Shown in pieces: positions 4,723 to 48,168 of a stretch of DNA of 64,000 bases. The notes under the pieces are model-generated. The model was not told the DNA's origin. It did no database searches and saw only the letters and a list, made by a program, of their open reading frames with translations. A program made the translations under genes and the position numbers. This DNA comes from Microbacterium hatanonis. Lineage in GTDB: Bacteria; Actinomycetota; Actinomycetes; Actinomycetales; Microbacteriaceae. Numbering within the stretch: position 1 is the stretch's first letter; each line of letters starts with the position of its first letter. The stretch covers positions 248,001-312,000 of the forward strand of contig NZ_VRSV01000002.1 in the NCBI RefSeq assembly GCF_008017415.1, read 5' to 3'.

Positions 4723-4732
4723 GGTGTTCTCC

Positions 4733-5104: not shown

Positions 5105-5141
5105 TTGGTTGTACGTTAGCCCCGCCTCGTCCACCCGTCAA
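5096..5141 (-). promoter_or_regulatory. arsR-SRPBCC promoter with operator over the start codon
   Basis: Minus-strand -35 TTGACG (5141-5136), a 17-bp spacer, then -10 TAACGT (5118-5113). The inverted repeat TACAACCA-TT-TGGTTGTA (5096-5113) covers the transcription start and the ATG. ArsR proteins of this type bind such ACAACC/GGTTGT repeats; the pairing here is inferred from position. Confidence 0.75.
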
Positions 5142-5223
5142 GAGTCCGGCGCACGAGTCTCGCTGCCCCGACGGACGTGAGGGCATGGATGCTGGGCCCG
5201 CCGCGGCCTGGCAGGCTGTACCG

Positions 5224-6192: not shown

Positions 6193-6222
6193 AGCGCCGA
6201 CCGGGCTGCGTCCACACGCGCC

Positions 6223-6240
6223 GATAGGATGGGCGCTATC
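6223..6240 (+). promoter_or_regulatory. Probable purL -10 region with inverted repeat
   Basis: TAGGAT (6225-6230) lies about 43 nt before the purL GTG and is embedded in GATAG-N8-CTATC. No good -35 was seen. The repeat overlaps the predicted transcription start and could be an operator. Confidence 0.4.
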
Positions 6241-6272
6241 CCCGATCCCCGCGATCTCTGGAGTTCAGCCGC

Positions 6273-13338: not shown

Positions 13339-14645
13339 CAGCGCACCACCTCCACGTCGTCGGCGCTGACACCGTCGGCATCGGGGCTCGTCTCGAGGAT
13401 CCGGTCGATGACCTCGGCCGAGACCGGCTGCGGCGGCAGCGGGATCTCCGACGTGGCCGAATGAGCGGGCCCGAGGGCGGCGAGGAGAGTCACACGGGGG
13501 ATGACACCGGTCAGACGGCCCTCGGCGTCGACCACCGCGAGCGGCAGCTGCGACTCGACGGCGGGCACGAACAGGTTCATGAGCACCTCGTCCTCGCGCA
13601 CGCTCTGGGGCACGGGCTTGAGCACCGATTCGAGCGAGGTCGTTCCCGCACGCACCAGCTTCACGGCATCGCGGTCGGAGACGATTCCCCGCAGCGTCCG
13701 ATCGCGGCCGGTGACGTACGCGGCCGACATGTAGGCATCCCGCATCTGGCGCAGCGCCGTGCGCGGACCGGCCGACGACGAGACGACCGGGCGCGGCCGC
13801 TCCATGACGTTCGCGGCGGTCAGCACGCGCGCACGATCGACGTCCTGCACGAACTGCTCGACGTAGTCGTTGGCGGGGTCGGTGAGGATGTCTTCCGGTG
13901 TCCCGATCTGCACGATGCGCCCGTCGCGCATCACGGCGATGCGGTCACCCAGGAACATGGCCTCGTTCAGGTCGTGCGTGATGAAGACGATGGTCTTCTG
14001 CAGCTTCTGCTGGAGCGAGAGCAGCTGCTCCTGCATCTCGCGTCGGATGAGCGGATCGAGTGCGCTGAAGGCCTCGTCCATGAGCAGGACGTCGGGGTCG
14101 GCGGCGAGAGCCCGGGCGATGCCGACGCGCTGCTGCATTCCGCCCGACAGGGCCGACGGGGGCTTGTCGCCCCATCCTTCGAGTCCGACCAGTGTGAGGA
14201 TCTCCTCGGCTCTCGCGAGCCTCTCGGCCTTGGCGGTGCCCCGCAGCTCGAGCGGGTACGCGACGTTCTCGGCGACGGTGCGATGCGGAAGCAGCGCGAA
14301 GTGCTGGAACACCATCGACACGCGATCACGACGGAGGCCGCGCAGCTTCGACGCGGTCGTTCCGGTCACCGGCTCGCCGTGGACGAGCACCGACCCCGCG
14401 GTCGCATCGTGCAGACCGTTGAGCATGCGGATGATCGTCGACTTGCCGGAACCCGACAGGCCCATGATGACGAAGATCTCGCCCTCGGCGACGTCGAAGC
14501 TCGCATCGATGACGGCGGCGGTTCCCGCGTCGGCGACGTCGGTGCGGCTCTCACCGGCTTTCAGGCGTTGAACGGCCTTCTGGGGGTTGCGTCCGAAGAC
14601 CTTGAAGAGATTGCGCGCCTCGAGGGCAGGCGGAAGAACGGTCAC
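13338..14645 (-). CDS. proV: Glycine betaine/proline-type ABC transporter ATPase with CBS domains
   Basis: An ATPase of 435 residues from the GTG at 14645. The ABC domain shows Walker A GLSGSGKST, signature LSGGMQQR, and Walker B VLLMDEAFSALDP. A C-terminal region of about 130 residues (from TAANVMERPRP) has two CBS motifs, one with GIVSDRDAVKLV, as in osmosensing OpuA/ProV proteins where CBS domains gate activity by ionic strength. The longer frame starts at 14681, but GAGG stands eight bases before the GTG at 14645, which I prefer. First gene of the operon. Uptake of compatible solutes under osmotic stress is the expected role. Confidence 0.93.
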   Translation of the reverse strand: MTVLPPALEARNLFKVFGRNPQKAVQRLKAGESRTDVADAGTAAVIDASFDVAEGEIFVIMGLSGSGKSTIIRMLNGLHDATAGSVLVHGEPVTGTTASKLRGLRRDRVSMVFQHFALLPHRTVAENVAYPLELRGTAKAERLARAEEILTLVGLEGWGDKPPSALSGGMQQRVGIARALAADPDVLLMDEAFSALDPLIRREMQEQLLSLQQKLQKTIVFITHDLNEAMFLGDRIAVMRDGRIVQIGTPEDILTDPANDYVEQFVQDVDRARVLTAANVMERPRPVVSSSAGPRTALRQMRDAYMSAAYVTGRDRTLRGIVSDRDAVKLVRAGTTSLESVLKPVPQSVREDEVLMNLFVPAVESQLPLAVVDAEGRLTGVIPRVTLLAALGPAHSATSEIPLPPQPVSAEVIDRILETSPDADGVSADDVEVVR

Positions 14646-15187
14646 AGTGTGCACCTCGGCTGCCCCGCACGGGGACGGCATCGGTCACGCCCGGGTGGCG
14701 GTCGCAGACGCGCACCTCGGGTCGAGGCGCGGCCGGGCGGCGGGTGTCGGACCCGCGCGCAAAGACCGCCGACCGTACGATCGCGGTCTGACACCCTCGG
14801 GAGATGTCACCGCGACCGCGGACTGGTCGGGTGGCCCGACAACGGGCACATCTCAACGTTTCACGGCCTCGGGGGCGTTGGCAAATCGCCGCGACCCCGG
14901 CTCCGGCGTCGGGTCGTGCGGCGCCCGCGGCCGCGTGATACCAGGCGTAGCAACCGTCCGCAAGCGGTCTGGCAGGGCGTCCGTCGCCCCATACGACACA
15001 TAGGTTCCCGTACCTGTTCACCGCGATGAGGTCGGGCCGTCGTCGCCTCGCGACTGCGCAGAGCGGACCGCACTCACCGCGGCGCCTTCAGCCCGGGACG
15101 CGGCGAGGATCGTGACCGATCCGTTACGGAATCTGGCCCGCGACCGGCGGCACCATCGCGTTCGTCCGATAGCGCCCGACCCCGACG
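14646..15187. other. Non-coding stretch upstream of the betaine operon
   Basis: About 540 bases without a convincing gene. It holds the leader of the betaine operon and the downstream side of the chorismate mutase gene. The only structures seen are a short repeat GACCGC-N13-GCGGTC near 14764-14788 and some TTG-rich patches on the minus strand without a paired -10. No riboswitch, tRNA or small ORF with a ribosome site was recognised. Open frames here are GC artefacts. Confidence 0.4.
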
Positions 15188-26807: not shown

Positions 26808-27770
26808 ATGCTCACCTACGTGCTCCGCCGCTCCGGGTTCCTCCTGGTGTCGCTGGCGGTCGCCCTCATCGTGATCTTCGTGCTGCTGCGGCTCCTGCCG
26901 GGCGATCCCGCCAACGCGCTGCTGTCGATCGACGCGACGCCCGAGCAGATCGCCGCGGCCCGGGCGCAGGTGGGCTCCGACCAGCCGCTGCTGACGCAGT
27001 TCGCGACCTGGGCGGGGCAGCTCGTGCGCTTCGACCTCGGCGAGTCGTACATCAGCTCGCGGCCCGTCGGGCCCGAGATCGCCTCGCGCCTGGCGATCAC
27101 GCTGCCCCTGACGCTGCTCGCCTTCGGTCTCGCGCTCGTCCTGTCGCTCGTCATCGGCATCACCGCCGCGGTGAAGGCCGACCGCTGGTACGGAGTGGTG
27201 CTGAGCGGTTTCTCGCAGCTCGGGGTCGCCGTCCCCGTCTTCTGGGTCGGTGTGATCCTCGTGTGGATCTTCGCCCTCCAGCTCGGACTCCTCCCTTCGG
27301 GAGGTTTCCCCCGCAGCGACTGGGAAGACCCGGCCGCCGCGCTTCGCGCCCTCACGCTCCCCGTCATCGCGATCGCGATCGTGATGAGCGCCTCGCTCAG
27401 CCGCTACGTGCGCTCGGCGACGCTCGACGTGCTCGGCAGCGACTACCTGCGCACCGCCCGCGCGGGCGGCGCCGGGATGACCGAGGCGCTGCTGCGTCAC
27501 GGTCTGCGCAACGGCGCCGTGCCCGTCGTCGCGGTGCTCGGCGTGGAGCTGTCGACGACGCTCCTCGGCGCGGTCGTGGTGGAGAGCGTCTTCACGCTCC
27601 CCGGTCTCGGCAGCCTGCTGCTCACCGGCATCCAGCAGCACGATTACGCGAACATCCAGGGCGTGCTCGTGGTGAGCACCCTGTTCGTGCTGCTCGTCGG
27701 GTTCGCCGCCGACATCGCGCAGCGCCTCATCGATCCGCGCCTGCGCACGAGCGTCTCGGGCAACCGGTGA
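26808..27770 (+). CDS. Peptide/nickel-type ABC transporter permease (DppB-like)
   Basis: A permease of 320 residues or so from the ATG at 26808 with six membrane segments. N-terminal signature YVLRRSGFLLVSLAVALIVIFVLLRLLPGDP; the ATPase-docking loop reads YLRTARAGGAGMTEALLRHGLRNG; the C-terminus has GVVVVSTLFVLL-like VLVVSTLFVLLVGFAADIAQRLIDPR. It forms the membrane channel with the next gene product. The following GTG start overlaps its stop codon (GTGA). Confidence 0.93.
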   Translation: MLTYVLRRSGFLLVSLAVALIVIFVLLRLLPGDPANALLSIDATPEQIAAARAQVGSDQPLLTQFATWAGQLVRFDLGESYISSRPVGPEIASRLAITLPLTLLAFGLALVLSLVIGITAAVKADRWYGVVLSGFSQLGVAVPVFWVGVILVWIFALQLGLLPSGGFPRSDWEDPAAALRALTLPVIAIAIVMSASLSRYVRSATLDVLGSDYLRTARAGGAGMTEALLRHGLRNGAVPVVAVLGVELSTTLLGAVVVESVFTLPGLGSLLLTGIQQHDYANIQGVLVVSTLFVLLVGFAADIAQRLIDPRLRTSVSGNR

Positions 27771-28630
27771 GCGCGGTCATCGAGCAGAACATCGCGGATG
27801 CTGCGCCCGCAGCATCCCGGCGACGCTCGATCACCCTGGTGGTCGGGATCGTGCTCACCGCCCTGGTCGTCCTCGTCGCGCTGGTGTCGCTGTTCTGGCT
27901 GCCCTACCCGCTCGACGACATCAGCGGCGGCCGTCTGGACGGCCCGAGCTCGGCACACCTGCTCGGCACCGACCGCCTCGGCCGCGACCTCCTGTCGCAG
28001 CTGATGGTCGGCGCGCGCATCGCACTGCTGGTGGGTGCCGGCGCGGTGCTCCTCGCCGGCGTGCTCGGGACGCTCATCGGGCTGGTGACGGCGTTCTCGC
28101 GCCCCTGGCTCGACGACACGCTCTCCTCCGCCCTCGACGTCGTGATCGCGTTCCCCGTGCTGCTGCTGGCGATGCTCGTCGTCGCCGTGCAGGGCGCGTC
28201 GCTGTGGTCGGCGACCCTCGCGATCGGGTTGGCGATGTCGGCCGTGGTCGCCCGACTGACCCGTATCCTCGCCCGGCGCGTGCTGCAGGAGCAGTACGTC
28301 ACGGCCGCCCGCACGAGCGGCACCCGTCTGCTCGGGATCGTGTGGCACCACGTGCTGCCGAACATCGCCCCCACCCTCGCGGTGAGCCTCGCCCTGCAGT
28401 TTGGCGTGGCCGTGCTCGCCGAGGCGAGCCTGTCGTACCTCGGCCTCGGCGCCCCGCCGCCGAACGCCTCGTGGGGCCGGATGCTGCAGGAGGCCCAGGG
28501 CACCGTGCTCAACGCACCCGTCGGGGCGATCGCGCCCGGACTCGCGATCGTCGCCCTCGTGCTGGGTGTCAACTTCCTCGCCGACGGCCTGCGCGACGTC
28601 GCCGATCCGACGAGACGGAGAGCGCGATGA
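27767..28630 (+). CDS. Peptide/nickel-type ABC transporter permease (DppC-like)
   Basis: A permease of 287 residues starting at a GTG that overlaps the previous stop (GTGA). The N-terminal pattern SSAHLLGTDRLGRDLLSQLMVGARIALLVG is typical of DppC, and the docking loop is YVTAARTSGTRLLGIVWHHVLPN. LSYLGLGAPPPNASWGRML is another family mark. Partner of the preceding permease. It overlaps the next gene by ATGA. Confidence 0.94.
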   Translation: MSAVIEQNIADAAPAASRRRSITLVVGIVLTALVVLVALVSLFWLPYPLDDISGGRLDGPSSAHLLGTDRLGRDLLSQLMVGARIALLVGAGAVLLAGVLGTLIGLVTAFSRPWLDDTLSSALDVVIAFPVLLLAMLVVAVQGASLWSATLAIGLAMSAVVARLTRILARRVLQEQYVTAARTSGTRLLGIVWHHVLPNIAPTLAVSLALQFGVAVLAEASLSYLGLGAPPPNASWGRMLQEAQGTVLNAPVGAIAPGLAIVALVLGVNFLADGLRDVADPTRRRAR

Positions 28631-29427
28631 CTCTTCTCGATGTGAGCGGGCTCTCGGTGCGGGCGGATGCTGCGCCCCTCGTCGACGCCGTCTCCTTCAC
28701 CCTCGACGCCGGAGACCGCGTGGGGCTGATCGGGGAATCGGGGTCGGGCAAGTCGCTGACCTCGCTCGCCGCGGTCGGACTGCTGCCCTCTGCTCTGCGC
28801 GTCTCCGGCTCGGTGCGCCTCGCCGGGCACGAGATCGTCGGCACCCCCGACGCGCGGCTGCGTGCGCTCCGAGGTCCCGTCGCGCAGGTCGTCTTCCAGG
28901 AGCCGCTGACGGCGCTGGATCCGCTCATGCGCGTCGGGAAGCAGCTCGCCGAGCCGCTGCGACGCCACCTGAACCTCCGGGGCGGCGCGCTCGGCGACGC
29001 CGTCTCGACGGCGCTGTCGGAGGTCGCACTGACCGACCCCCGCATCGCGCGCGCCTACCCGCACGAGCTCTCGGGCGGTCAGCGTCAGCGCGTCGCGATC
29101 GCGATCGCCCTCGCAGCACGCCCGCAGCTGCTCATCGCCGACGAGCCGACCACCGCGCTCGACGTCACCGTGCAGGACGCCGTGCTGACGCTGCTCGAAA
29201 GGCTCATCGCCGAGCGGGACATGGCGCTGCTCTTCGTCAGCCACGACCTCGCCGTCGTCTCGCGGATGGTCGAGCGCATCGTCGTGCTGCAGCGCGGCGT
29301 CGCGGTCGAGGAGGGGCCGGTCGACCGCGTGCTGCGCGATCCGCAGCATCCGTACACCCGCGCCCTCGTCGCCAGCGCCCGCTCGCTCGACGCCGCGCTC
29401 GACGCCTCCGAGGGAGGTGTCGAATGA
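28627..29427 (+). CDS. Peptide/nickel-type ABC transporter ATPase (DppD-like)
   Basis: A 266-residue ABC ATPase. Walker A GESGSGKS near residue 38, Q-loop VVFQEPLTALDPLMRVG, signature LSGGQRQRVAIA, Walker B LLIADEPTTALDVTVQ, switch His VSHDLAVV. It is shorter than most DppD proteins (about 320 residues) because it lacks the usual C-terminal oligopeptide domain with its iron-sulphur cysteines. Starts in the ATGA overlap with the permease stop and overlaps the next gene the same way. Confidence 0.94.
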   Translation: MTLLDVSGLSVRADAAPLVDAVSFTLDAGDRVGLIGESGSGKSLTSLAAVGLLPSALRVSGSVRLAGHEIVGTPDARLRALRGPVAQVVFQEPLTALDPLMRVGKQLAEPLRRHLNLRGGALGDAVSTALSEVALTDPRIARAYPHELSGGQRQRVAIAIALAARPQLLIADEPTTALDVTVQDAVLTLLERLIAERDMALLFVSHDLAVVSRMVERIVVLQRGVAVEEGPVDRVLRDPQHPYTRALVASARSLDAALDASEGGVE

Positions 29428-30179
29428 GCGTGCTGGAACTTCGCGACGCCGGCTTCTCCTACGGATCGCGCAGCGTGCTCGACGACGTCTCGCTCAGCGT
29501 CGCCGAGGGGGAGTCGGTCGGGCTCGTCGGCGAGTCGGGTGCGGGAAAGTCGACGATCCTGCGCCTCCTGCTGGGCCTCGCCGCCCCACGCGACGGGTCG
29601 GTGCTGTTCGACGGCCGGCCGCTCGACCTTCGCGACCGGTCGCTGATGCGGCGGTTCCGCGCGAGCGTGCAGCCGGTCTTCCAGGATCCTTACTCCTCCC
29701 TCGATCCGCGCCAGCGCATCGACCGGATCGTCGGTGAGCCGCTGCGCTCCCTCGGTCTCGCGCGCGGTGCCGACGCCGCATCGCGCGTGGAGGAGGCCGT
29801 CGCCGCCGTCGGCCTCGACGCCGGCACCCTCACCCGGTACCCGCACGAGTTCTCCGGCGGGCAGCGCCAGCGCATCGCGATCGCCCGCGCCCTCGTGTCC
29901 CGTCCGCGCGTGCTGCTGGCGGACGAGCCGGTGAGCGCCCTCGACGTCACCACGCGAGTGCAGGTCATCGACCTGCTCGCTCGCCTCCGCCGCGAGAACG
30001 GCCTCACGCTGGTGATGGTCTCGCACGACCTCAGCGCGGTGGCCTCGGTCTGCGAACGCACCGTGGTGCTGCAGCACGGGCGCATCGTCGAGGCGGGCGC
30101 GACGCGCAGCATCCTCTCCTCCCCCTCGACGGCGTACGCCCGCCAGCTCGTCGCCGCGGTGCCCCGCCTGCCGCGCTGA
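29424..30179 (+). CDS. Peptide/nickel-type ABC transporter ATPase (DppF-like)
   Basis: A 251-residue ABC ATPase and the second engine of the transporter. Walker A GESGAGKST near residue 38, Q-loop PVFQDPYSSLDPRQRI, signature FSGGQRQRIAIA, Walker B VLLADEPVSALDVTTR, and switch His VSHDLSAV. Also truncated at the C-terminus relative to typical DppF. Last gene of the five-gene operon; 39 nt later a cyclophilin gene starts from its own promoter box. Confidence 0.94.
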   Translation: MSVLELRDAGFSYGSRSVLDDVSLSVAEGESVGLVGESGAGKSTILRLLLGLAAPRDGSVLFDGRPLDLRDRSLMRRFRASVQPVFQDPYSSLDPRQRIDRIVGEPLRSLGLARGADAASRVEEAVAAVGLDAGTLTRYPHEFSGGQRQRIAIARALVSRPRVLLADEPVSALDVTTRVQVIDLLARLRRENGLTLVMVSHDLSAVASVCERTVVLQHGRIVEAGATRSILSSPSTAYARQLVAAVPRLPR

Positions 30180-38417: not shown

Positions 38418-38441
38418 AAACTGCACACACGTGTGCAGTTT
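38418..38441. promoter_or_regulatory. Operator of the TetR gene
   Basis: A perfect repeat with 11-base arms AAACTGCACAC and GTGTGCAGTTT around an AC centre, 17 bp upstream of the TetR start and overlapping the expected -35 region (its -10-like box CAGAAT is 38447-38452). Being followed by TTTCGT and 18 bp after argG, it could also act as an argG terminator. Confidence 0.7.
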
Positions 38442-38458: not shown

Positions 38459-39076
38459 ATGACTTCTTCTGCCGTGCGCCGACCGCGCCGCGACGCCCAG
38501 GCCAACCGGGCGGGCATCGTGTCGGCCGCCGCCGTCGAGATCGCACGCGACCCCCACGCCTCGCTCGATGCGATCGCGAGATCGGCGGGCCTGTCTCGGC
38601 GTGCACTCTACGGACACTTCGACGACCGCGATGCCCTCGTCACCGAGGTGATCGTCACCGGTGCCGCCCGGTTCAACGCGATCGCCGCCCGCATCGACGA
38701 TCCCGATCCGCGTCGAGCGCTCGCACTCCTCGCCGCCGCGCTGTGGCACGAGGCGTCGCACGTGCGCGCGGCTGCCGCGATCGCCCTCGACGAGACCCAC
38801 GTCTCCCACACCGCCGCGGCCCTCGCGCCGCTGCGGGCGAAGATCGCGGAGATCGTCGCACGAGGCCGAGCCGACGGATCCCTGCGCACCGACATCCCCG
38901 CCGACGTGCTCACCGACCTCATCGAGGGCACCGGCCGCGCCGTGGTCTCGCACCTGCACGTCGATGCGGGCGACGGGGGCGAGCTCGCGGTGAAAGCGGT
39001 GCTGGGCATCGCGGGCCTCTCGTGGCGCGAGAGCATCGAACTGCTGGCCGACGACGCCGAGGAGGCGGGCGAATGA
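38459..39076 (+). CDS. TetR-family repressor
   Basis: A protein of 205 residues. N-terminal TetR HTH (about 15-60): GIVSAAAVEIARDPHASLDAIARSAGLSRRALYGHF in pieces, followed by an all-helical ligand domain. It starts leaderless, CAGAAT then six bases then ATG, right after the inverted repeat at 38418-38441, so it is autoregulated and likely controls the two downstream genes, which it overlaps by ATGA. Ligand unknown; TetR regulators next to YhgE proteins often sense membrane-active or lipophilic compounds (general knowledge). Confidence 0.92.
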   Translation: MTSSAVRRPRRDAQANRAGIVSAAAVEIARDPHASLDAIARSAGLSRRALYGHFDDRDALVTEVIVTGAARFNAIAARIDDPDPRRALALLAAALWHEASHVRAAAAIALDETHVSHTAAALAPLRAKIAEIVARGRADGSLRTDIPADVLTDLIEGTGRAVVSHLHVDAGDGGELAVKAVLGIAGLSWRESIELLADDAEEAGE

Positions 39077-39894
39077 GGATCGAGCTGCGCGGCGTGAGCA
39101 AGGGGCGCGCCGAGCGGGCGCTGCCGGAGACGTCGCTCACCTTCGAGACGGGGCGGGTGACCCTCGCGGTCGCCGAGACCGAGCAGCGCCCCACCGTCCT
39201 GGGGCTGCTGGCGTCCGGGCGCATGCGGGCGGACACCGGCGAGGTGCTGCTCGACGGACGCAAGGATGCGGCGGGCATCCGTCGCCGGGTCGCGCTCGTC
39301 GACGCGCTCGAGGTGTCCGAGCCCGCGCCCGCGGTGACCGTGGCCGGCGTCGTCGCCGAGGAGCTGATGTTCGCCGGGGCGTCGCCGAACCCGTTCGCCG
39401 CCCGGCGCTGGCTCGACGACCTGGGCCTGGGCGAGTTGGCCGGCACGCCGATCGGCAACATCGAGCCGGCCGCGCGCATCCGCATCCTGCTCGAGCTCGC
39501 AGCGCTCCGGAAGGGCGTCGAGGGCATCGTGCTCACCTCCCCCGACCGCCACGGCGGCGAACCGCAGAACTGGTGGCGCGTCGCGACGGAGTTCGCCGAG
39601 CGCGGCTACGCGGTACTCGCGATCGCCGGGCGCGCATCGCAGTCGGTGCTCTCGGTCGAGATCGACGCATCGCTCCCCGCCGACGCGACCGAAGTCGTTC
39701 CCGCCGCTTCCGAGGGGGAGGACGAGACACCCCCGCCGACCGGCGAGACGGCACCCGAACAGGTCTCCCCCGACACCGGGGCCGACGCCCCGACCGCCGA
39801 CGACACGGTGGCCGCCGACACCGACCCCGCACCCGGCATCGGCGCCGATGCGCCCGACACCGAAGCATCCGCACCGACGGAGGACGAACGATGA
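39073..39894 (+). CDS. Degenerate ABC-ATPase-like protein beside YhgE/Pip
   Basis: A protein of 273 residues. It opens like an ABC ATPase (MRIELRGVSKGRAERALPETSLTFETGRVTLAVAE in pieces) and has RRVALVDALEV, but there is no Walker A (the place reads TEQRPTVLGLLASG), no LSGGQ signature and no Walker B Asp-Glu pair near IVLTSPDRHGG. The last 70 residues are an Asp/Glu/Pro/Thr-rich disordered tail. I infer an ATPase-derived protein that has lost catalysis and may work as a structural partner of the membrane protein encoded four bases later (ATGA overlap). Confidence 0.75.
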   Translation: MRIELRGVSKGRAERALPETSLTFETGRVTLAVAETEQRPTVLGLLASGRMRADTGEVLLDGRKDAAGIRRRVALVDALEVSEPAPAVTVAGVVAEELMFAGASPNPFAARRWLDDLGLGELAGTPIGNIEPAARIRILLELAALRKGVEGIVLTSPDRHGGEPQNWWRVATEFAERGYAVLAIAGRASQSVLSVEIDASLPADATEVVPAASEGEDETPPPTGETAPEQVSPDTGADAPTADDTVAADTDPAPGIGADAPDTEASAPTEDER

Positions 39895-41744
39895 AGGTCC
39901 CGCAGATGATCGCCGCCGAACTGCGGCGGCTCACCTCATCGCGCATGTCGCTGATCGCGCTCGTCGCGCTGCTGCTCGTGCCGATCCTCTACGGCGGCCT
40001 CTACCTGTGGGCGAACCAGGACCCGTACGGCAGCCTCTCCCGGGTGCCCGTCGCCCTCGTCGTCGACGATACGGGGGCCACGGTGAACGGCCAGCAGCGA
40101 AACTTCGGTGACGAGGTCGCCGACGAGCTGCTCGGCGGCGACACGTTCGAGTGGCACCAGGTCTCGACCGATGCCGCAACGGCCGGGCTCGAGAACGGCG
40201 ACTTCGACTTCATCGTGGAGGTGCCCGCCGACTTCTCTGCCTCCATCGCCTCGATCTCGACCGACGCGCCCCGTCAGGCCGACATCGTGCTGCGGACGAA
40301 CGACGCGAACAACTACCTCGCCTCGACGATCGGCACGCAGGCCGTCGCCCGCATCCAGTCGACCGTGGCGCAGAAGGTCGTCGACCAGGGCGGCCTCACA
40401 CTGCTGAACGCGCTCTCCACGATCCGGGTCAAGCTGACGGATGCGGCGTCGGGGGCCCAGCAGCTCGTCGACGGCCTCGGCACCGCCCGCGACGGATCCA
40501 CGCGACTCGCCGACGGCGCCGGGGCGCTCGCCTCCGGCACGGCCCAGCTGCGCGACGGTGCCACGACGCTCCGCGACGGCGCCGCACAGGTGAGCTCGGG
40601 CGCCCAGCAGGTCGCCGCCGGCACGCAGCAGGTGGCGACCGTCGCGGACCGCGTCGCCTCAGCATCCGCCGACGCCGCCTCGCTGCTGCCGACCGCCCGC
40701 GCCGACATCGCGCAGAGGCTCGCCGACGCCGGTGTCGACCCGGCCCGTATCGCGGAGGTGCTGGCGGCCCTCGACCCGGTGGGGCAGCGCCTGACGGACG
40801 CCAATACGCGCGTGCAGACCGCCGTCGGGCAGATCGATCAGCTCTCCGCCGGCGCGCAGCAGGTGTCGACCGGCGCGCAGCAGCTCGCCTCGGGTTCCGC
40901 GGCCCTCGCCGACGGCGCAGCATCCGCCGCGGACGGCGCCGCGCAACTGAGCGACGGCGCGAGCAGCCTCGACGGCGGCATCGCCCAGCTCGCCGACGGC
41001 GCCGCGCAACTGCAGACCGGGCTCGCCGACGGGGTGAACCAGATCCCCGACACCGACGATGCGACCCGTGCCAGCCAGGCGTCGACGCTATCCGACCCGG
41101 TGGCGGTCTCGACCAGCGCCCTCACCCAGGCGCAGAACTACGGCGCGGGACTGGCGCCGTTCTTCGCCGCCCTGGCGGCCTGGATCGGCATCTACGCCCT
41201 GTTCCTCATCGTGAAGCCGGTGTCGCGTCGCGCGGTCACGGCCCTTCACTCGCCCCTGCGGGTCACGCTCGCCGGGTGGCTGACGCCCGCCCTCCTCGGC
41301 GGCCTGCAGATGCTGGGGCTGTTCGGCGTCCTCGCCCTCGCCCTCGGCTTCTCGTTCGCGAATCCGCTCGCGACCCTCGGCATCCTGCTGCTGGCGACGG
41401 CCACGTACGCGGCGATCGTGCTCGCGCTGAACGTGTGGCTCGGATCGGTCGGACAGTTCCTCGGGCTCGTGCTGATGGTGCTCCAGCTCGTCACCGCGGG
41501 CGGCACGTTCCCGTGGCAGACGTTGCCCGCGCCTCTCGCGGCGCTCCATCACGTGCTGCCGATGGGTTACGTCGTCGACGCGATGCGCCAGGTCATGTAC
41601 GGCGGAGACCTCGACCGGGTGTGGCTCGACCTCGCCGTCCTCGGCACGTGGCTCGTCGGCGCCGGCATCTTCGCGGCCATCGGCGTCGGGCGCATGACCC
41701 GCTTCCGCACCCTGCGCGACCTTCAGCCGAGCGTGATCGGCTGA
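39891..41744 (+). CDS. YhgE/Pip-family membrane protein
   Basis: A protein of 617 residues with YhgE/Pip and ABC-2-like domains. One membrane helix near 20-42 is followed by an extracytoplasmic region with LSRVPVALVVDDTGATVNGQ and then long repeats of the form L-x-x-G-A-x-x-L-x-x-G (about 185-400, for example ADGAGALASGTAQLRDGA), predicted coiled coil or beta-like. Five or six C-terminal helices run from about 425 to 605. The family includes phage-infection proteins and probable exporters. Under TetR control and paired with a degenerate ABC protein, it may export a toxic or lipophilic compound. The tail is followed by a hairpin. Confidence 0.9.
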   Translation: MKVPQMIAAELRRLTSSRMSLIALVALLLVPILYGGLYLWANQDPYGSLSRVPVALVVDDTGATVNGQQRNFGDEVADELLGGDTFEWHQVSTDAATAGLENGDFDFIVEVPADFSASIASISTDAPRQADIVLRTNDANNYLASTIGTQAVARIQSTVAQKVVDQGGLTLLNALSTIRVKLTDAASGAQQLVDGLGTARDGSTRLADGAGALASGTAQLRDGATTLRDGAAQVSSGAQQVAAGTQQVATVADRVASASADAASLLPTARADIAQRLADAGVDPARIAEVLAALDPVGQRLTDANTRVQTAVGQIDQLSAGAQQVSTGAQQLASGSAALADGAASAADGAAQLSDGASSLDGGIAQLADGAAQLQTGLADGVNQIPDTDDATRASQASTLSDPVAVSTSALTQAQNYGAGLAPFFAALAAWIGIYALFLIVKPVSRRAVTALHSPLRVTLAGWLTPALLGGLQMLGLFGVLALALGFSFANPLATLGILLLATATYAAIVLALNVWLGSVGQFLGLVLMVLQLVTAGGTFPWQTLPAPLAALHHVLPMGYVVDAMRQVMYGGDLDRVWLDLAVLGTWLVGAGIFAAIGVGRMTRFRTLRDLQPSVIG

Positions 41745-41832: not shown

Positions 41833-42231
41833 TCAGCCGCCCGCCGCGGGCGGGGTCTCCTTCGAGGCGCGCAGCTCGTCGGTGTACAGCGCGGCGCGGT
41901 CGAGCGTGCCGTTGCGGTAGGCCTGTCGGCCGACCATGTGCGCCGAGAGCGGCGCGGTCGCGAGCTGGATCAGCACGATCGGGATGATGAAGGCGAGCAC
42001 CGCCCACGAGCGCAGCGACAGCGCGATCGCGATGCAGATCACGATGAGGCCGAGCACCTGCGGCTTGGTGGCGGCGTGCAGCCGGGTGGGCACGTCGCGG
42101 AAGCGCAGCAGGCCGATGGCGGCGGTGAGGCACAGCAGTGCGCCGACGAGGATCAGCACGAGGGCGACGGTATCGAGCACCGCGTCGAGCGGAGAAGCCG
42201 TGACTTCGATGGGGGCGGTCGCGAGGATCAT
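41833..42231 (-). CDS. mnhG: Cation/proton antiporter subunit G
   Basis: A protein of 131 residues, three membrane helices, with the MnhG/PhaG pattern LILVGALLCLTAAIGLLRFRDVPTRLHAATKPQVLG. Subunit of the multisubunit Mrp/Mnh antiporter, which uses the proton gradient to expel sodium (or potassium). Its ATG overlaps the mnhF stop by four bases; ends the operon. The longer frame upstream is inside mnhF. Confidence 0.93.
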   Translation of the reverse strand: MILATAPIEVTASPLDAVLDTVALVLILVGALLCLTAAIGLLRFRDVPTRLHAATKPQVLGLIVICIAIALSLRSWAVLAFIIPIVLIQLATAPLSAHMVGRQAYRNGTLDRAALYTDELRASKETPPAAGG

Positions 42232-42497
42232 TGGTCTGCGTTGTCCTTCCTCGCGACGAACCGAGCGATCGAGATCGACCCGAAGACCCCCACCGCGGCG
42301 ATGATGAGCAGCACCGGCAGGGTGCGGGTGTGCTGGTTGATCGCCATCTCGGCGCCCAGCACGCACATGACCTCGGTCAGCAGGACGTCGGAGGCGACCG
42401 CACGGTCGAGGATCGACGGGCCGGTCACGATGCGCCAGAGCGTCAGGAGCGCCGCGACCGCGAAGACGACGAAGATCACCAGCAGCAGGATGTTCAT
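42228..42497 (-). CDS. mnhF: Cation/proton antiporter subunit F
   Basis: A protein of 89 residues, three helices, with the MnhF core TLWRIVTGPSILDRAVASDVLLTEVMCVLGAEMA in pieces. The GPS-DRAVA motif is diagnostic. It starts at the ATG at 42497, which overlaps the mnhE stop. A small structural subunit of the Mnh complex. Confidence 0.93.
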   Translation of the reverse strand: MNILLLVIFVVFAVAALLTLWRIVTGPSILDRAVASDVLLTEVMCVLGAEMAINQHTRTLPVLLIIAAVGVFGSISIARFVARKDNADQ

Positions 42498-43078
42498 ACG
42501 GGCGTTCCTCCCTGGCGCGGCGTGTCGACGGAGGCCTTGCGGATCATCTCGAGCTGGCTGCGAGAGCCGGCCGCGCGCACGATGCGCGCCTCCCAGCCGA
42601 GGATCGACTTCCGGAGCGCCTCGACGTCGTCGTCGCTGTCGACGCCGATGACGTGGAGATACAGGATGCGTCGATCCCGGTCGGCCTCGACGATGAGCGA
42701 GCCGGGGATCAGCGAGGCCGTCACCGCGGTGTGGGTCATGATCAGGTCGTCGTCCGTGCGCAGCTGCACCGCGATCACCGCGCTGCTGGGCTGCCGACGG
42801 ATGTCGATGACCTGCCAGGCCACCAGGAGCGAACCGCGCACGAGGGCCGCGAAGAAGGTCACGACGAAGACGAGCCCGTACCAGAGGTTCAACCGGCCCG
42901 ACAGCTGCACGGGCGGGAGGCGGAACACGCGCGTGACGATCACCGCTGCGACCACGCCCGTCAGGAAGGCCACGACCGTGAACTGCCCCCACAGCAGCAT
43001 CCACAGGGCGACGAGCCACACGAAGAACGGCAGCTGCCGCCACAGCTGGTGCAGCGCGTCTTTCTTCTCTCGCATCAT
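42494..43078 (-). CDS. mnhE: Cation/proton antiporter subunit E
   Basis: A protein of 194 residues with two N-terminal helices and a soluble C-terminal part. MnhE marks are LPPVQLSGRLNLWYGLVF, SLLVAWQVI and TASLIPGSLIVEADRDRRILYLHVIG. The start codon pair ATG-ATG lies inside a tandem duplication; the upstream copy forms a mini-ORF. The last 25 residues are an extension. Its 3' end overlaps mnhF by four bases. Confidence 0.93.
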   Translation of the reverse strand: MMREKKDALHQLWRQLPFFVWLVALWMLLWGQFTVVAFLTGVVAAVIVTRVFRLPPVQLSGRLNLWYGLVFVVTFFAALVRGSLLVAWQVIDIRRQPSSAVIAVQLRTDDDLIMTHTAVTASLIPGSLIVEADRDRRILYLHVIGVDSDDDVEALRKSILGWEARIVRAAGSRSQLEMIRKASVDTPRQGGTPV

Positions 43079-43117
43079 GAGGCGACCTCTTCGTCCCGCA
43101 TCATGAGCCGGCCTCTT
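43072..43117. repeat. Tandem duplication at the mnhD/mnhE junction
   Basis: Two 20-base copies, 43072-43091 and 43098-43117, start GCATCATGAG and end CCTCTT, with two mismatches between. Six bases separate them. The event duplicated the mnhE start region. Confidence 0.75.
43075..43104 (-). CDS. Nine-residue mini-ORF coupling mnhD and mnhE
   Basis: Reads MMRDEEVAS and a stop. Its ATG overlaps the mnhD stop (ATGA), and its TGA overlaps the mnhE ATG (ATGA). Its first codons mirror mnhE (MMREKK), because a 20-base block is tandemly duplicated with a 26-bp period. Ribosomes could pass from mnhD to mnhE through it. Whether a peptide is made is unknown. Confidence 0.4.
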   Translation of the reverse strand: MMRDEEVAS

Positions 43118-44657
43118 GTTCGAGCTGCACGACGGTGACCGGCTGCAGGAGCGATTCGCCGATGCGCGTGCAGACCTCGTACAGCGGCCCGGCGAAGATC
43201 GTCAGCGCGACGGTGACGGCGACCATCCCCGCCGTCGAGGCGGTCATGATCTTCGGGATCGCGCGACGCTCGGTCTTCGTGCCCGCCTCGGGCGAGTCAC
43301 CCAGGTACGAGATGCGCTCGTCCGACTCCGCCGAGTCCTCGTCCTCGCGCCAGAAGGCGAGGTTCCAGGCGCGCATGAGGGCGTACAGGGTGAGGAGCGA
43401 GGTGACGATACCGCCCACGATCAGCACGATCATGATCGGAGTGCCGATCTCGGCGGCGGCGTCGAACAGGGCGTACTTGCCGATGAAGCCCGAGAACGGC
43501 GGCAGGCCGCCGAGGTTCACCGCGGGGATGAAGTAGAGCACCGCGATGACGGGCGCGGCACGCATGAGTCCGCGTACGCGCAGCACCGACGTGCTGCCCG
43601 CCCGGCGCTCGACGAGTCCGATCGCGAGGAACAGGGTCGTCTGCACCACGATGTGGTGGACGATGTAGTAGATCGTCGCCCCGATGGCGGCCGGCGTCGC
43701 AATGGCCAGGCCGAAGATCATGTAGCCGATGTGGCTGACGAGGGTGAACGACAGGATCCGTTTGAGCTCCGCCTGGGCCACGGCGCCGAGCACACCGACG
43801 ATCATCGTCGCCAGCGCCACGATCAGCAGCAGCAGGTTGATGTCGTTGTCGCGGAAGATCTCGGTCTCGGTGCGGATCAGCGCGTAGACGCCGACCTTCG
43901 TCAGAAGGCCCGCGAACACCGCCGTCACCGGAGCCGGCGCGGTGGGGTAGGAGTCGGGCAGCCAGAACGACAGCGGGAAGACGGCCGCCTTGATGCCGAA
44001 GGCGACGACCAGCATGAGGTGCAGCACGAGCTGCGTCTCTTGCGGGAGCTCGACCATGCGCTCCGACAGCTGCACCAGGTTGACCGTGCCGAGCGCTCCG
44101 TAGATCGCGCCGATCGCCGCGAGGAAGAGGATCGACGACACGAGCGAGACGACGATGTAGACCACGCCCGTGCGGATGCGGTTCTCGGTGCCGCCGAGCG
44201 TGATGAGCACGTACGACGCCACGAGCAGGATCTCGAACCCAACGTAGAGGTTGAACAGGTCGCCCGCGATGAAGGCGGTGAAGATGCCCGCCGCCAGGAT
44301 CAGATACGACGGGTGGAAGATCGACACCGGGGTGTCTTCGTCGCCGTCCTCGGCGCCCTGTCCGACCGAGAAGAGGAGGACGGAGAGCAGCACGACGCTC
44401 GAGACCAGCACGAGCAGCGCGGCGAGCCTGTCGACGTAGAGCACGATGCCGAAGGGCACGGGCCACCCGCCGACAGACACGGCGATCGGCACGTTGGACG
44501 CATCGACGTAGACCAGCAGCACGGCGGCGATGACCATCGTCAGCGTCAGCGTCGCGATCGACACGGTGATCTGGGTGCGGCGGTGGCGCCCCGCGATGAG
44601 GGCGATCGCCGCGCCGAGCAGCGGCAGGGTGACGAGGAGGGGGACGAGAGAACTCAT
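43101..44657 (-). CDS. mnhD: Cation/proton antiporter subunit D
   Basis: A 518-residue membrane protein of the NADH-dehydrogenase/Mrp D family, about fourteen helices. Conserved stretches include GDLFNLYVGFEILLVASYVLI, IKAAVFPLSFWLPDSYPTAPAPVTAVFAG, GALAQAELKRILSF-like VAQAELKRILSFTLVSHIGYM, and NLGGLPPFSGFIGKYALF. The lysines and glutamate of the proton channel are kept. Its ATG overlaps the mnhC stop by ATGA. A 50-residue acidic loop (REDEDSAESDE) interrupts the C-terminal helices. Confidence 0.95.
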   Translation of the reverse strand: MSSLVPLLVTLPLLGAAIALIAGRHRRTQITVSIATLTLTMVIAAVLLVYVDASNVPIAVSVGGWPVPFGIVLYVDRLAALLVLVSSVVLLSVLLFSVGQGAEDGDEDTPVSIFHPSYLILAAGIFTAFIAGDLFNLYVGFEILLVASYVLITLGGTENRIRTGVVYIVVSLVSSILFLAAIGAIYGALGTVNLVQLSERMVELPQETQLVLHLMLVVAFGIKAAVFPLSFWLPDSYPTAPAPVTAVFAGLLTKVGVYALIRTETEIFRDNDINLLLLIVALATMIVGVLGAVAQAELKRILSFTLVSHIGYMIFGLAIATPAAIGATIYYIVHHIVVQTTLFLAIGLVERRAGSTSVLRVRGLMRAAPVIAVLYFIPAVNLGGLPPFSGFIGKYALFDAAAEIGTPIMIVLIVGGIVTSLLTLYALMRAWNLAFWREDEDSAESDERISYLGDSPEAGTKTERRAIPKIMTASTAGMVAVTVALTIFAGPLYEVCTRIGESLLQPVTVVQLEQEAGS

Positions 44658-45232
44658 CGGTCTTCCTCGCTCTCGTCGTCTCGGCTGTCGGGTCTGTCGG
44701 TTCGAACCGGCTGTTCGGATGCGGCGGGGCGGTCGGACGGCGCATCGTCGCGCAGATTCGTGTAGTCGCGGTTGCCGAGGAGCCGCAGCGGCGAGCTCTC
44801 GACCCCGACGAAGTCGGTCGTCGCGTCGTCGTCCTCCTCGTCGACCTCGACGTCCATTGCCTCCTCGTCCTGCGAGGTGCGCGCGCGCATGGCCACGTCT
44901 TCGGCGTCGTCCTCCACCGTGTCGGCCTGACCGAGCTGCCACGACCGGTAGATGAGGGCGAGCAGGAAGGCGGAGACGGCGAACGTGATGACGATCGCCG
45001 TCAGCGTCAGCGCCTGCGGCAGGGGGTCGGAGTACCCCTCGGGGGTCGACGAGTCGGGGTAGAACGGAGCCACTCCTGGCTCGCCCATCACGATGAGCAG
45101 CATGAGGTTCGCCGAGTTGCCGAGCAGGAGGAACCCGATGAGCACGCGGGTGAGGCTGCGCTCGAGCATCGCGTAGACACCGCAGGCGAAGAGCACCGCC
45201 ATGATGATGATGAGGACGAGCGAGACGTTCAT
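44654..45232 (-). CDS. mnhC: Cation/proton antiporter subunit C with acidic tail
   Basis: A protein of 192 residues. The first 110 are a normal MnhC/NuoK-like three-helix subunit: LERSLTRVLIGFLLLGNSANLMLLI and DPLPQALTLTAIVITFAVSAFLLAL. The remaining 80 are Asp/Glu/Arg-rich (VDEEDDDATTDFVGVE and so on), not part of typical MnhC, which is about 110-125 residues. The tail should be cytoplasmic and disordered. Overlaps both neighbours by four bases. Confidence 0.94.
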   Translation of the reverse strand: MNVSLVLIIIMAVLFACGVYAMLERSLTRVLIGFLLLGNSANLMLLIVMGEPGVAPFYPDSSTPEGYSDPLPQALTLTAIVITFAVSAFLLALIYRSWQLGQADTVEDDAEDVAMRARTSQDEEAMDVEVDEEDDDATTDFVGVESSPLRLLGNRDYTNLRDDAPSDRPAASEQPVRTDRPDSRDDESEEDR

Positions 45233-48168
45233 CGGGCACTCGCCCCCTGCGCGCGCAGCTCCTGCGTCTGTCGGTCGACCTCGGCACCGAGGCTGCGCAG
45301 CACGTCGAGCACGAGCCCGATGACCACGAGATAGACACCGACGTCGAAGATCGTCGAGGTGACGAACTCCACGTGGCCGAGGACGGGGATCTCGAACTCC
45401 CAGAACGTGCTGGTGAGGGGCGCCGCACCGAACAGCAGCGGCACGATCGCACAGCCGACCGCGAGCGCCATCCCGACGCCGAGCAGGCGGCCAGGGTCCG
45501 CGGGAGCCGCGGCTCCCAGCTCGTAGCGACCGCCCGCGACGTAGCGCATGACGAGGGCCATGCCGGCGACGAGGCCGCCCGCGAAGCCGCCGCCGGGAAG
45601 GTTGTGACCGGCGAAGAGGAGGTACAGCGACACGACGATGATCGTGTGGAAGAGCACCCGCACCACGACCTCGAGGATGATCGAGCGGTTCTCGGGCCGC
45701 ACCCGCTGCCCGGCGAACAGCCAGGCCTGCGGACGGTTGCTCGTGTCGTCGGTGCGCGCGCGCACGCCCTCGGCGGTCTCGACGAGGGCACCGCGTCCGC
45801 GCTTGGTGAGACGCGGCAGACGCGTGGTCAGCTTCGACAGCGTGTCGGAGCGGTGCGTGACGAACACCAGGGAGGCGACGCCGGTGGCAGCGAGCACGAG
45901 CACCGACAGCTCGCCCATCGTGTCCCACCCGCGGAGGTCGACGAGGGCGACGTTCACGACGTTGCGACCGTGGCCGATCTCGTAGGCGAGCATCGGGAAG
46001 CTGTCGGAGATGGGCCGCACCTGTCGGGCACCGGTCGCCACGATCGCGACGAGCGCCATGGTCGCGCCGGCGCCGATCGCGAGCACGGCGCGGGCGAGCG
46101 GCCAGACCGACGCGTTGTGGTCGCCCATCCGCGCGGGGATGCGGCGCAGCACGAGGGCGAACGCGATCAGCGTGACCGTCTCGACGAGGATCTGCGTGAG
46201 GGCGAGGTCGGGGGCGCCGCTCGTGGCGAAGAGCACGACCATGCCGAGGCCGGTGACGGAGACGAGCACGACGCCGCTGTAGCGCTTGCGGGCGTTCACC
46301 GCGAGCACGCCGGCGGCGATCATGACCGGGGCCACGGCCAGCTGCGCGGGCGTGTGCCACGCGTCGAGCTGCGCCTGCCAGACGGGGCTCGACAGGAGCA
46401 CGGTGCCCTCGGCGACGACGAAGACGAGGAAGATCATGCCGACGTAGACGGGCAGCGAGCCTCGCTGGGTGAGGCTCGTGGTGAAAACCGACGCGCGGGC
46501 GATGAAGCGCAGAACCGCGTTGTAGACGTCGACCGCGGTGAACGGCAGCACCCGGCGGGCGGTTGCGGGCGTGGCGCGACGGGTGATCCAGAAGACGAAC
46601 ACGCCCACGACGAGCGTGCCGAGGGAGATGAAGAGCGCGGGCTCGAGGCCGTGCCAGAGCGCCAGATAGGGGGTGCTCTCGGGCTCGGGCAGTCCGGGGC
46701 TCGCGGGAGCGGCCGTCTGCGCGTACGGCTGGAGCACGCGGTCGAGGAGCGGAGCCCCGAATCCGCCCGCGAGCGTGAGGAGGGACAGCACGACCGGCGA
46801 CGCGAGGAAGCCGATCGGCGGATCGGGCCACTCGGTGCGATCGATCGCGCGGCCCTCGTCGTCCTTCTTCGTGCCGAACGCGCCCCACAGGAACCGGGCT
46901 CCGTAGGCGGCGGTGAGCACCGAGCCGAGCGATACGCCGATCAGGGCGACGAGCCCCCACGTCTCACCGTGGAGAGCCTCTTCGACGAACGCCGTGAGCG
47001 CGCTCTCCTTGGCCACGAAGCCGAGCGTGGGAATGATGCCGGCCATCGAGGCGATGGCGATCGTGGAGACCACCGTGAGCACGGGTGCCTGTCGCGCGAC
47101 GCCGCTGAGCTCGCGGATGTCTCGGGTGGAGAGCTGGCGGTCGATGACGCCGACGACGAGGAACAGGCACGACTTGAACAGGGCGTGACCGAGCAGCAGC
47201 GCGAGGCCGGCCAGGGCGGCCTCCTGCGTTCCGTAGCCGAGCACGACGGTGAGGAAACCGAGCTGCGAGACGGTGCCGAACGCGAGGATGCGCTTCAGGT
47301 CGGTCTCGCGCAGCGCCTGGAGCCCGCCGAGCAGCATCGTGAAGATGCCCAGCGCGAGCACGATCGGGCGCCAGCTGGGGGCGAACGCGAAGACGGGCGC
47401 CAGCCGGGCGATCAGGTAGATGCCCGCCTTCACCATCGCGGCCGCGTGCAGATAGGCGCTGACCGGAGTCGGCGCGGCCATGGCACCGGGGAGCCAGAAG
47501 TGGAAGGGGAAGATGGCCGACTTGCTGAGCGCCCCGACCAGCAGCATCACGAGTGCCGCGTCGACGATCGGCCCGGTCGGCGCGAGGGCGAGGATCGCGG
47601 AGATGCTCGACGTGCCGGTATCGACGACCAGAAGCACCACGCCGATGAGCATCACGAGACCGCCGAGGGTGGTCACGAGCAGCGCCTGCAGCGCGGCACG
47701 ACGGCTCGCACCGCGGCGGTGGTAGTACCCGATGAGCAGGTACGACAGGATGCTGGTGACTTCCCAGAACATCACGAGCACCACGAGGTCGTCGGTCAGC
47801 ACGAGGCCGTACATCGCCCCCGCGAAGGCGAGCAGGACGGCGGAGAACTGTCCGAGCCCCTCGTCCTTGCCGCGGAAGTACCAGCGGCAGTAGATCATCA
47901 CGAGCGCCCCGACGCCGCTGACGACGAGCGCCATCAGCCACCCGAGGGTGTCCATCCGCATCGATAGCGAGATGCCGAGCGAGGGGATCCAGTCGTATGC
48001 CTCGAAAGGAATGTCGCCGTCGAGGACGACCGGGGTCGCGATGGCCGCCTGCACGAACGCGGCTGCCGGGAGGAGGGCGGCGACGTAGAAGGCCCGTGCT
48101 CCCAGCCTCTTCACGAGGAACGGGAGCAGGAGCGGCACGACCGCGAACGCGGCAAGGAGTACCAACAT
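45229..48168 (-). CDS. mnhA: Cation/proton antiporter subunit A fused with B
   Basis: A 979-residue protein. The N-terminal half is NuoL/MnhA-like (FLTVVLGYGTQEAALAGLALLLGHALFKSCLF in pieces; PTPVSAYLHAAAMVKAGIYLIAR). Residues near 600-760 carry the MbhD/E-like part, and about 830-965 the MnhB domain: SIILEVVVRVLFHTIIVVSLYLLFAGHNLPGGGFAGGLVAGMALVMRYVAGG in pieces. No separate mnhB exists, so A-B is one polypeptide, the usual actinobacterial and Gram-negative arrangement. First gene of A(B)-C-D-E-F-G. AGGAGG precedes the ATG. The complex gives sodium and alkali tolerance. Confidence 0.96.
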   Translation of the reverse strand: MLVLLAAFAVVPLLLPFLVKRLGARAFYVAALLPAAAFVQAAIATPVVLDGDIPFEAYDWIPSLGISLSMRMDTLGWLMALVVSGVGALVMIYCRWYFRGKDEGLGQFSAVLLAFAGAMYGLVLTDDLVVLVMFWEVTSILSYLLIGYYHRRGASRRAALQALLVTTLGGLVMLIGVVLLVVDTGTSSISAILALAPTGPIVDAALVMLLVGALSKSAIFPFHFWLPGAMAAPTPVSAYLHAAAMVKAGIYLIARLAPVFAFAPSWRPIVLALGIFTMLLGGLQALRETDLKRILAFGTVSQLGFLTVVLGYGTQEAALAGLALLLGHALFKSCLFLVVGVIDRQLSTRDIRELSGVARQAPVLTVVSTIAIASMAGIIPTLGFVAKESALTAFVEEALHGETWGLVALIGVSLGSVLTAAYGARFLWGAFGTKKDDEGRAIDRTEWPDPPIGFLASPVVLSLLTLAGGFGAPLLDRVLQPYAQTAAPASPGLPEPESTPYLALWHGLEPALFISLGTLVVGVFVFWITRRATPATARRVLPFTAVDVYNAVLRFIARASVFTTSLTQRGSLPVYVGMIFLVFVVAEGTVLLSSPVWQAQLDAWHTPAQLAVAPVMIAAGVLAVNARKRYSGVVLVSVTGLGMVVLFATSGAPDLALTQILVETVTLIAFALVLRRIPARMGDHNASVWPLARAVLAIGAGATMALVAIVATGARQVRPISDSFPMLAYEIGHGRNVVNVALVDLRGWDTMGELSVLVLAATGVASLVFVTHRSDTLSKLTTRLPRLTKRGRGALVETAEGVRARTDDTSNRPQAWLFAGQRVRPENRSIILEVVVRVLFHTIIVVSLYLLFAGHNLPGGGFAGGLVAGMALVMRYVAGGRYELGAAAPADPGRLLGVGMALAVGCAIVPLLFGAAPLTSTFWEFEIPVLGHVEFVTSTIFDVGVYLVVIGLVLDVLRSLGAEVDRQTQELRAQGASAR

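Follow-up and report, generated by a model that had tools for sequence, protein, structure and literature searches.

A degenerate ABC cassette paired with a YhgE/Pip membrane protein in Microbacterium hatanonis: a candidate pseudo-ABC subunit

Introduction

What can an ATP-binding cassette (ABC) protein do for its membrane partner once the catalytic motifs are gone? The question is raised by an operon of Microbacterium hatanonis, found in a window of 64,000 nucleotides (contig NZ_VRSV01000002.1, positions 248,001–312,000; coordinates below are those of the window), where a tetR gene, a cassette gene and a gene for a YhgE/Pip membrane protein follow each other on the + strand with ATGA-type overlaps at their junctions. 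A preliminary description, made from the letters of the sequence, had linked the start of an ABC ATPase, lacking Walker A, signature and Walker B, to a 617-residue YhgE protein; the coordinates and the identity of the latter were correct, as judged from the open reading frames (ORFs) and from TIGR03061 and TIGR03062 matches above their cut-offs. With a probability only a little above one half (≈0.55), sequence and model lead us to read the cassette as a nucleotide-independent docking and gating pseudo-ABC subunit of YhgE, whose drive, if any, would come from elsewhere.

YhgE-type genes were common in the actinobacteria searched; the pip/yhgE genes of Firmicutes are not known to have a cassette partner. 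According to one report, some YhgE/Pip proteins of Firmicutes are phage-entry factors, among them PIP-EF, which carries a large predicted extracellular domain between membrane helices 1 and 2 and on which phage infection of E. faecalis depends (PMC4999554). For actinobacterial YhgE genes, the accessible portions of the open-licence literature searched held passing mentions only, in a cholesterol-response table of Saccharopolyspora (PMC9782250) and at a recombination hotspot of M. avium (PMC12584985), and no paper therein named a YhgE cargo or power source or dealt with an actinobacterial YhgE cassette or MMPL-ABC fusion.

Results

Predicted fold of the cassette protein

The product of 39073–39894 consists of an ABC cassette (residues 1 to about 195) and, after it, a tail that is acidic, rich in Pro and variable. 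An AlphaFold2 (AF2) model of residues 1–205, built on 56 aligned sequences, reached a predicted local distance difference test score (pLDDT) of 89.0 and a predicted TM-score (pTM) of 0.86. With this model, Foldseek returned 915 matches at E ≤ 1e-3, the top one being 4hlu_C (E = 5e-10), and the 50 matches listed were, to judge by their titles, cassettes or transporters of the ABC type; the VIA structural alignment with LptB gave a Z of 16.2 over 199 aligned residues (4.8 Å). By the model, the protein has the ABC cassette fold, with a RecA-like core and a helical subdomain. The structure prediction suggested in the preliminary description has thus returned an ABC fold and not an unrelated one, and the ABC nature proposed there stands; the view that just the start of a cassette is present does not, since the model spans the whole cassette and the structural matches cover residues 1–205.

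At the sequence level, the likeness is remote. Pfam retrieved no family for the protein, even at E ≤ 10, and the best matches of a single-sequence phmmer search against the PDB were weak ones to ABC ATPases (best 1.1e-3), while with a 20-sequence cassette profile the PDB yielded 51 sequences at E ≤ 0.01, every one an ABC protein by name (best 5.6e-8). PF00005 was matched at E ≤ 0.01 by none of 56 close and by two of 20 diverse homologues; of eight distant proteins tested, its cut-off was exceeded by those of L079, L100, L127, L146 and L093 and by the MMPL fusion P0005, and was not reached by that of L115 and the MMPL fusion P0004.

Lost catalytic motifs

Where GxxGxGK is expected for Walker A, the window cassette reads AETEQRPT; its signature region is PIGNIEPAAR, and at the end of Walker B (hhhhDE expected) it carries IVLTSPDRHGG, the Walker B Asp/Glu being replaced. 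The reported absence of all three motifs is therefore borne out, and homologues with intact Walker motifs at this locus, which would have spoken against it, were sought with a negative outcome: neither Walker A (GxxGxGK[ST]) nor LSGGQ occurred in any of 110 distinct homologues (window included), LSGGQ was also missing from all 76 relatives of the class-wide survey described below, and the replacement motif PDRxG was kept in 109 of the 110. This tally was done on whole domains; the set of 110 omits the cassettes of L158, L171, L183 and L199, and L003, L019 and L025 were added to it by hand.

A DE-type regular expression matched 16 of 186 sequences, on inspection always outside Walker B, and the seven such strings among the window homologues all lay in the C-terminal tail. 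Walker-B-like strings of the LVLDEP type in L179, L194, L184 and L213 were considered and judged chance, given their position in the variable tail. PLVLDEP-like strings, probably due to chance, follow the dead cassette in the tails of L015 and L018 as well as in those four. In the same alignment, DEP stood at Walker B in all eight reference cassettes of the own genome, so the alignment is able to find Walker B; since these had been selected for Walker A and SGG, their Walker B alone is a free test.

Selection on the cassette gene

Ranked among windows of the same length, SPDRHGGE was the most conserved of ten segments (0.99), followed by the Q-loop region (0.93) and the P-loop helix (0.90); the former P-loop, residues 34–41, ranked 0.82. 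As segments of the former ATP site rank high, the old active face is still under selection, with new residues. The ratio of nonsynonymous to synonymous substitution rates (dN/dS, simple method) was 0.034 between the window cassette and its nearest homologue (L002), with a median of 0.18 (range 0.03–0.44) for the 103 of 1081 pairs above 70% identity. Invariant residues are present across the homologues, and 35 of 37 cassette matches above 200 bits were free of in-frame stops. By these sequence measures the gene is not decaying and is under purifying selection among close relatives.

Association with YhgE

The YhgE protein (39891–41744) matched TIGR03061 (179.5 bits, 3.8e-53; cut-off 96.15), TIGR03062 (192.4 bits, 7e-57; cut-off 102.2) and the ABC-2-type membrane domain ABC2_membrane_3 (PF12698; 84.6 bits, 9.5e-24; cut-off 31.6); as a Type VII EsaA protein (TIGR03929) it scored 65.6 bits, below the cut-off of 122. 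A long hairpin is predicted between the N-terminal region and the C-terminal membrane domain; for the latter, Foldseek gave weak matches to chains of ABCG/ABCH, KpsM and Wzm. A plasmid search with the YhgE C terminus gave no match.

The pair was looked for in other actinobacteria, as the preliminary description had suggested, and was found there. The YhgE N-terminal domain was present at 126 of 127 cassette-homologue loci, the exception being L183, where the sequence ends about 177 bases beyond the cassette match, and cassette and yhgE were adjacent at all 120 loci that could be scored. The 127 loci include the window (L001), overlap in genomes and hold about 110 distinct cassettes; L048–L077 (short-flank copies of survey loci) and L144 (contig end, no YhgE N terminus) were omitted before counting. 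The pairing with YhgE is more than chance. No MMPL gene was seen near the free-standing cassette at the 120 scored loci. A regular-expression scan of 237 loci, of limited sensitivity (three of four known ordinary cassette ORFs of the window were recovered), saw no ordinary ABC cassette within the operon, the eight ordinary cassette ORFs detected being all in upstream flanks. One homologue locus (L199), at which no YhgE C terminus was found, comes from a record titled Stenotrophomonas maltophilia, likely through contamination or a wrong label.

Strong cassette homologues (E ≤ 3e-19) occurred in 47 of 98 genomes, i.e. 39/59 of the same genus and 8/39 others of the same order; the weaker matches had E values of 1e-5 to 1e-3.

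Regulation and a cassette-free variant

The palindrome found upstream of tetR (Table 1) has 0.01 matches expected by chance in the window. One perfect site and one with two mismatches are present genome-wide, which gives the cassette-yhgE operon the look of a unit under local control. The operator core TGCAC-N6-GTGCA stands 5' of tetR in 112 of the 120 homologue loci having enough upstream sequence (112 matches, spread over 112 of all 127 loci); it was found in just 8 of the 80 loci of the class-wide survey, thus the motif belongs to the window lineage. A tetR like that of the window (product P0003) occurred in 78 of 80 named homologue loci, and argG, which lies upstream of tetR in the window, in 67 of them. 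TetR would sense a ligand, upon which the cassette and YhgE pair would be derepressed.

In two genomes of the same genus (L142 and L143), the argG-linked locus carries a P0003-like tetR and two divergent yhgE genes in tandem, with no cassette. Their products are 24–27% identical to the window YhgE, and one single-sequence query with the window cassette gave no match anywhere in either genome. In L143 the operator motif immediately precedes tetR; in L142 it immediately precedes the first yhgE, and tetR lies beyond the yhgE pair. These sequences make it evident that the regulator can govern YhgE with no cassette present, although such distant YhgE proteins may have another job.

Class-wide survey and MMPL fusions

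TIGR03062 was matched above its cut-off in 85 of 296 genomes of the class. The survey comprised 80 regions, picked by the analyst for family spread, of which 73 lay above the TIGR03062 cut-off and seven below it (L129, L147 and L151–L155), with 83 scorable YhgE genes. An ABC-like cassette was encoded directly upstream of 76 of them, free-standing in 60 cases and as the C-terminal domain of an MMPL protein in 16; the remaining seven had neither. Six of the 16 fusions stem from the seven below-cut-off loci, and the Pfam check was done on P0004 and P0005. By sequence, these cassettes form a YhgE-dedicated pseudo-ABC family that occurs across many lineages of the class.

No Walker B Asp-Glu was found in the 76 surveyed cassettes (nine DE-type strings lay, on inspection, outside Walker B), and many had D-D or D-N at that position. 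A strict Walker A was kept in seven, five of which were MMPL fusions; nine had Lys at the aligned Walker A position, and 26 distinct cassettes carried the strict Lys-to-Arg version, GxxGxGR[ST]. In profile comparisons, the window family matched its free-standing relatives (several of them scoring above the ABC cut-off of Pfam) with E = 2.4e-18, the P-loop-bearing MMPL fusions with 1.5e-11 and the degenerate MMPL fusions with 7.8e-8 (probability 94.5). On a YhgE tree, made quickly, with long branches and the root unknown, MMPL fusion required one change when set against free-standing cassettes and two against all other rows, and the Walker A Lys required four.

A second YhgE system of the window genome (L154) has upstream an MMPL protein, P0004 (PF03176, 1.1e-85), ending in a degenerate cassette. 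MMPL-cassette fusions with a strict P-loop (e.g., GPSGSGKT) and without LSGGQ were noted in L117, L119, L120, L121 and L105; the one of L119 (P0005) holds PF03176 and PF00005 in one frame.

Features of the locus

The features are collected in Table 1. Ordinary ABC ATPase ORFs with all motifs occur elsewhere in the window, at 13341–14684 (−), 27676–29424 (+) and 28386–30176 (+), and PF00005 is matched 116 times in the source genome at E ≤ 0.001. Downstream of and convergent with the operon, the sequence at about 41840–45800 (−) resembles, by eye, a Mrp/Mnh-type cation/proton antiporter operon. Rfam matches and tRNA genes were absent from the window.

Table 1. Coordinates of the operon, of its parts and of the MMPL-cassette fusion of the same genome
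Feature	Position	Strand	Basis
24-bp palindrome AAACTGCACAC-AC-GTGTGCAGTTT, probable TetR operator	38418–38441	none	11-bp arms perfect, 2-bp spacer
tetR, TetR-family regulator, first gene of the operon	38459–39076	+	PF00440 1.2e-8
Degenerate ABC cassette gene, 273-aa product	39073–39894	+	AF2, Foldseek, VIA, homologues
Former Walker A, AETEQRPT, residues 34–41, Gly-Lys gone	39172–39195	+	alignments
Q-loop/X-loop region, residues 75–87, strongly conserved	39295–39333	+	conservation rank 0.93
Lost LSGGQ signature position, residues 126–138, PIGNIEPAARIRI	39448–39486	+	alignments, profile alignment
SPDRHGGE, residues 156–163, replacing Walker B end and D-loop	39538–39561	+	conservation rank 0.99
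YhgE/Pip membrane protein gene, 617 aa, ABC-2-type transmembrane domain	39891–41744	+	TIGR03061, TIGR03062, PF12698
Predicted long helical hairpin of YhgE, heptad repeats, residues ~138–384	40302–41042	+	DSSP of model; TIGR03057 3.9e-22
YhgE C-terminal membrane domain, residues 398–602	41082–41696	+	TIGR03062; weak Foldseek matches
MMPL-cassette fusion P0004, last ~180 residues degenerate ABC cassette, directly 5' of yhgE	L154 (G000:C1:154445-162535), ORF 3926–7156	−	PF03176

Discussion

Sequence and model agree on a cassette of ABC fold that has lost three motifs, is under purifying selection among close relatives and co-occurs with YhgE, at loci with a common TetR operator motif; in sister systems, cassettes of this kind occur as fusions with MMPL proteins. 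With the ABC nucleotide-binding domain (NBD; PF00005, as in LptB, EcfA and HrtA) the window cassette shares the full-length fold and a remote sequence homology, and the gene order, cassette before ABC-2-type membrane protein, is that of NBD systems; it differs in being without Walker A, signature and Walker B Asp/Glu and in being unseen by Pfam. On the membrane side, PF12698 and a weak structural likeness relate the window YhgE to the Type V (ABC-2) exporters ABCG, Wzm-Wzt and KpsMT, which have working cassettes, the long heptad-repeat hairpin setting YhgE apart. TIGR03061, TIGR03062 and a large central region are shared with the YhgE/Pip proteins (Lactococcus Pip, Enterococcus PIP-EF, B. subtilis YueB and S. 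aureus EsaA). YueB/EsaA of the type VIIb secretion system (T7SSb) differs in having beside it a different ATPase, YukB, and the pseudokinase YukC (PMC9600267); in YueB there is thus a precedent for a protein of YhgE type that works together with an ATPase encoded apart from it and with a pseudoenzyme. Finally, in the MMPL (RND) transporters found at surveyed YhgE genes the cassette is a C-terminal domain, unlike the free-standing one of the window lineage, which has no MMPL gene nearby.

As a docking and gating subunit, the cassette would approach the cytoplasmic face of a YhgE dimer with its conserved Q-loop side, much as an ABC cassette meets an ABC-2 domain, and would hold or gate the dimer without ATP binding or hydrolysis, the former active face with PDRHGG serving as a dimer or partner interface. 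The YhgE conduit might then be passive, be driven by the proton motive force by way of a partner MMPL protein, or draw its power from another ATPase. ATP drive from this cassette is, on its sequence, very unlikely; for the sister systems, the MMPL fusions point to the proton motive force. Of the preliminary description, the loss of the catalytic motifs holds, and its three options (structural role, sensory role or energy from elsewhere) are not separable by sequence; a structural role with energy from elsewhere is favoured because at 16 of 83 YhgE genes a cassette of this kind forms part of an RND-type MMPL protein and because the argG-linked locus can carry, with the operator motif retained, a YhgE pair and no cassette.

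Several observations weigh against this reading. The AF2 model of YhgE is weak (pLDDT 76.9, pTM 0.48), its best Foldseek E being 2e-3, with none at 1e-3. A strong cassette match in only 39 of 59 same-genus genomes means that the pair is dispensable, and, as no MMPL gene lies at the 120 scored loci, a proton-driven partner would be hypothetical for the pair of the window. The former nucleotide face stays conserved (residues 34–41 and 156–163), so that a new ligand there is possible. Moreover, uncorrected pN/pS over all 1081 pairs had a median of 0.61 and a maximum of 1.17 with synonymous sites saturated, and purifying selection is therefore measured among close relatives only.

A bolder version, which we regard as possible but distinctly less probable, makes the dead cassette a mechanical adaptor by which a proton-driven MMPL (RND) pump drives or feeds the ABC-2-fold YhgE conduit. 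The long hairpin of YhgE would reach into the cell wall and the cassette would no longer use ATP; the link would be covalent in the MMPL fusions, while in the window lineage the cassette would be free-standing, with a separate partner or alone. Somewhat less credit still goes to a sensor, in which the cassette would still bind, with no hydrolysis, a nucleotide or some different small ligand and would gate YhgE in response: many relatives retain most of the P-loop, as the 26 surveyed cassettes with GxxGxGR[ST] illustrate, and the former active face is conserved in the window lineage, but there the P-loop glycines and Lys are gone, which makes ordinary phosphate binding unlikely. Asymmetric exporters having one degenerate site exist, and the 116 PF00005 matches of the genome would offer intact cassettes encoded elsewhere with which ours could pair as the silent half of an ABC transporter. 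Known degenerate ABC partners, however, usually retain Walker A, whereas both ATP-site faces (Walker A/B and signature) are lost here; the scan of 237 loci, within its limited sensitivity, saw no ordinary cassette in the operon, and YhgE stands at the same locus without any cassette in L142 and L143, so that we hold such a silent half to be unlikely.

The conservation of PDRHGG, which tops the scored segments and sits at the former Walker B/D-loop, could also be explained if this motif and its neighbouring residues formed a new catalytic site; yet the phosphate-binding loop is no longer present and no ATPase is known to use a PDRHGG-like motif, hence a noncanonical ATPase appears highly improbable. 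The loss of the catalytic motifs, the variable tail and the 20 of 59 same-genus genomes without a strong match are what a relic, i.e. a cassette in decay that travels with its operon, would leave behind. This last explanation is contradicted already by purifying selection among close relatives and was rejected on the low dN/dS of the 103 close pairs and the invariant residues, the near absence of in-frame stops also standing against it; it is the least credible of all.

We therefore retain docking and gating without nucleotide as the preferred role of the cassette. Were the adaptor version true, the energy source of YhgE exporters would have switched in evolution from ATP to the proton motive force. 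An ABC cassette has apparently been retained here for a role other than ATP hydrolysis, and a strongly conserved, catalytically dead cassette dedicated to YhgE, absent at one variant of the locus and fused to RND-type proteins at others, makes the question of energy directly testable.

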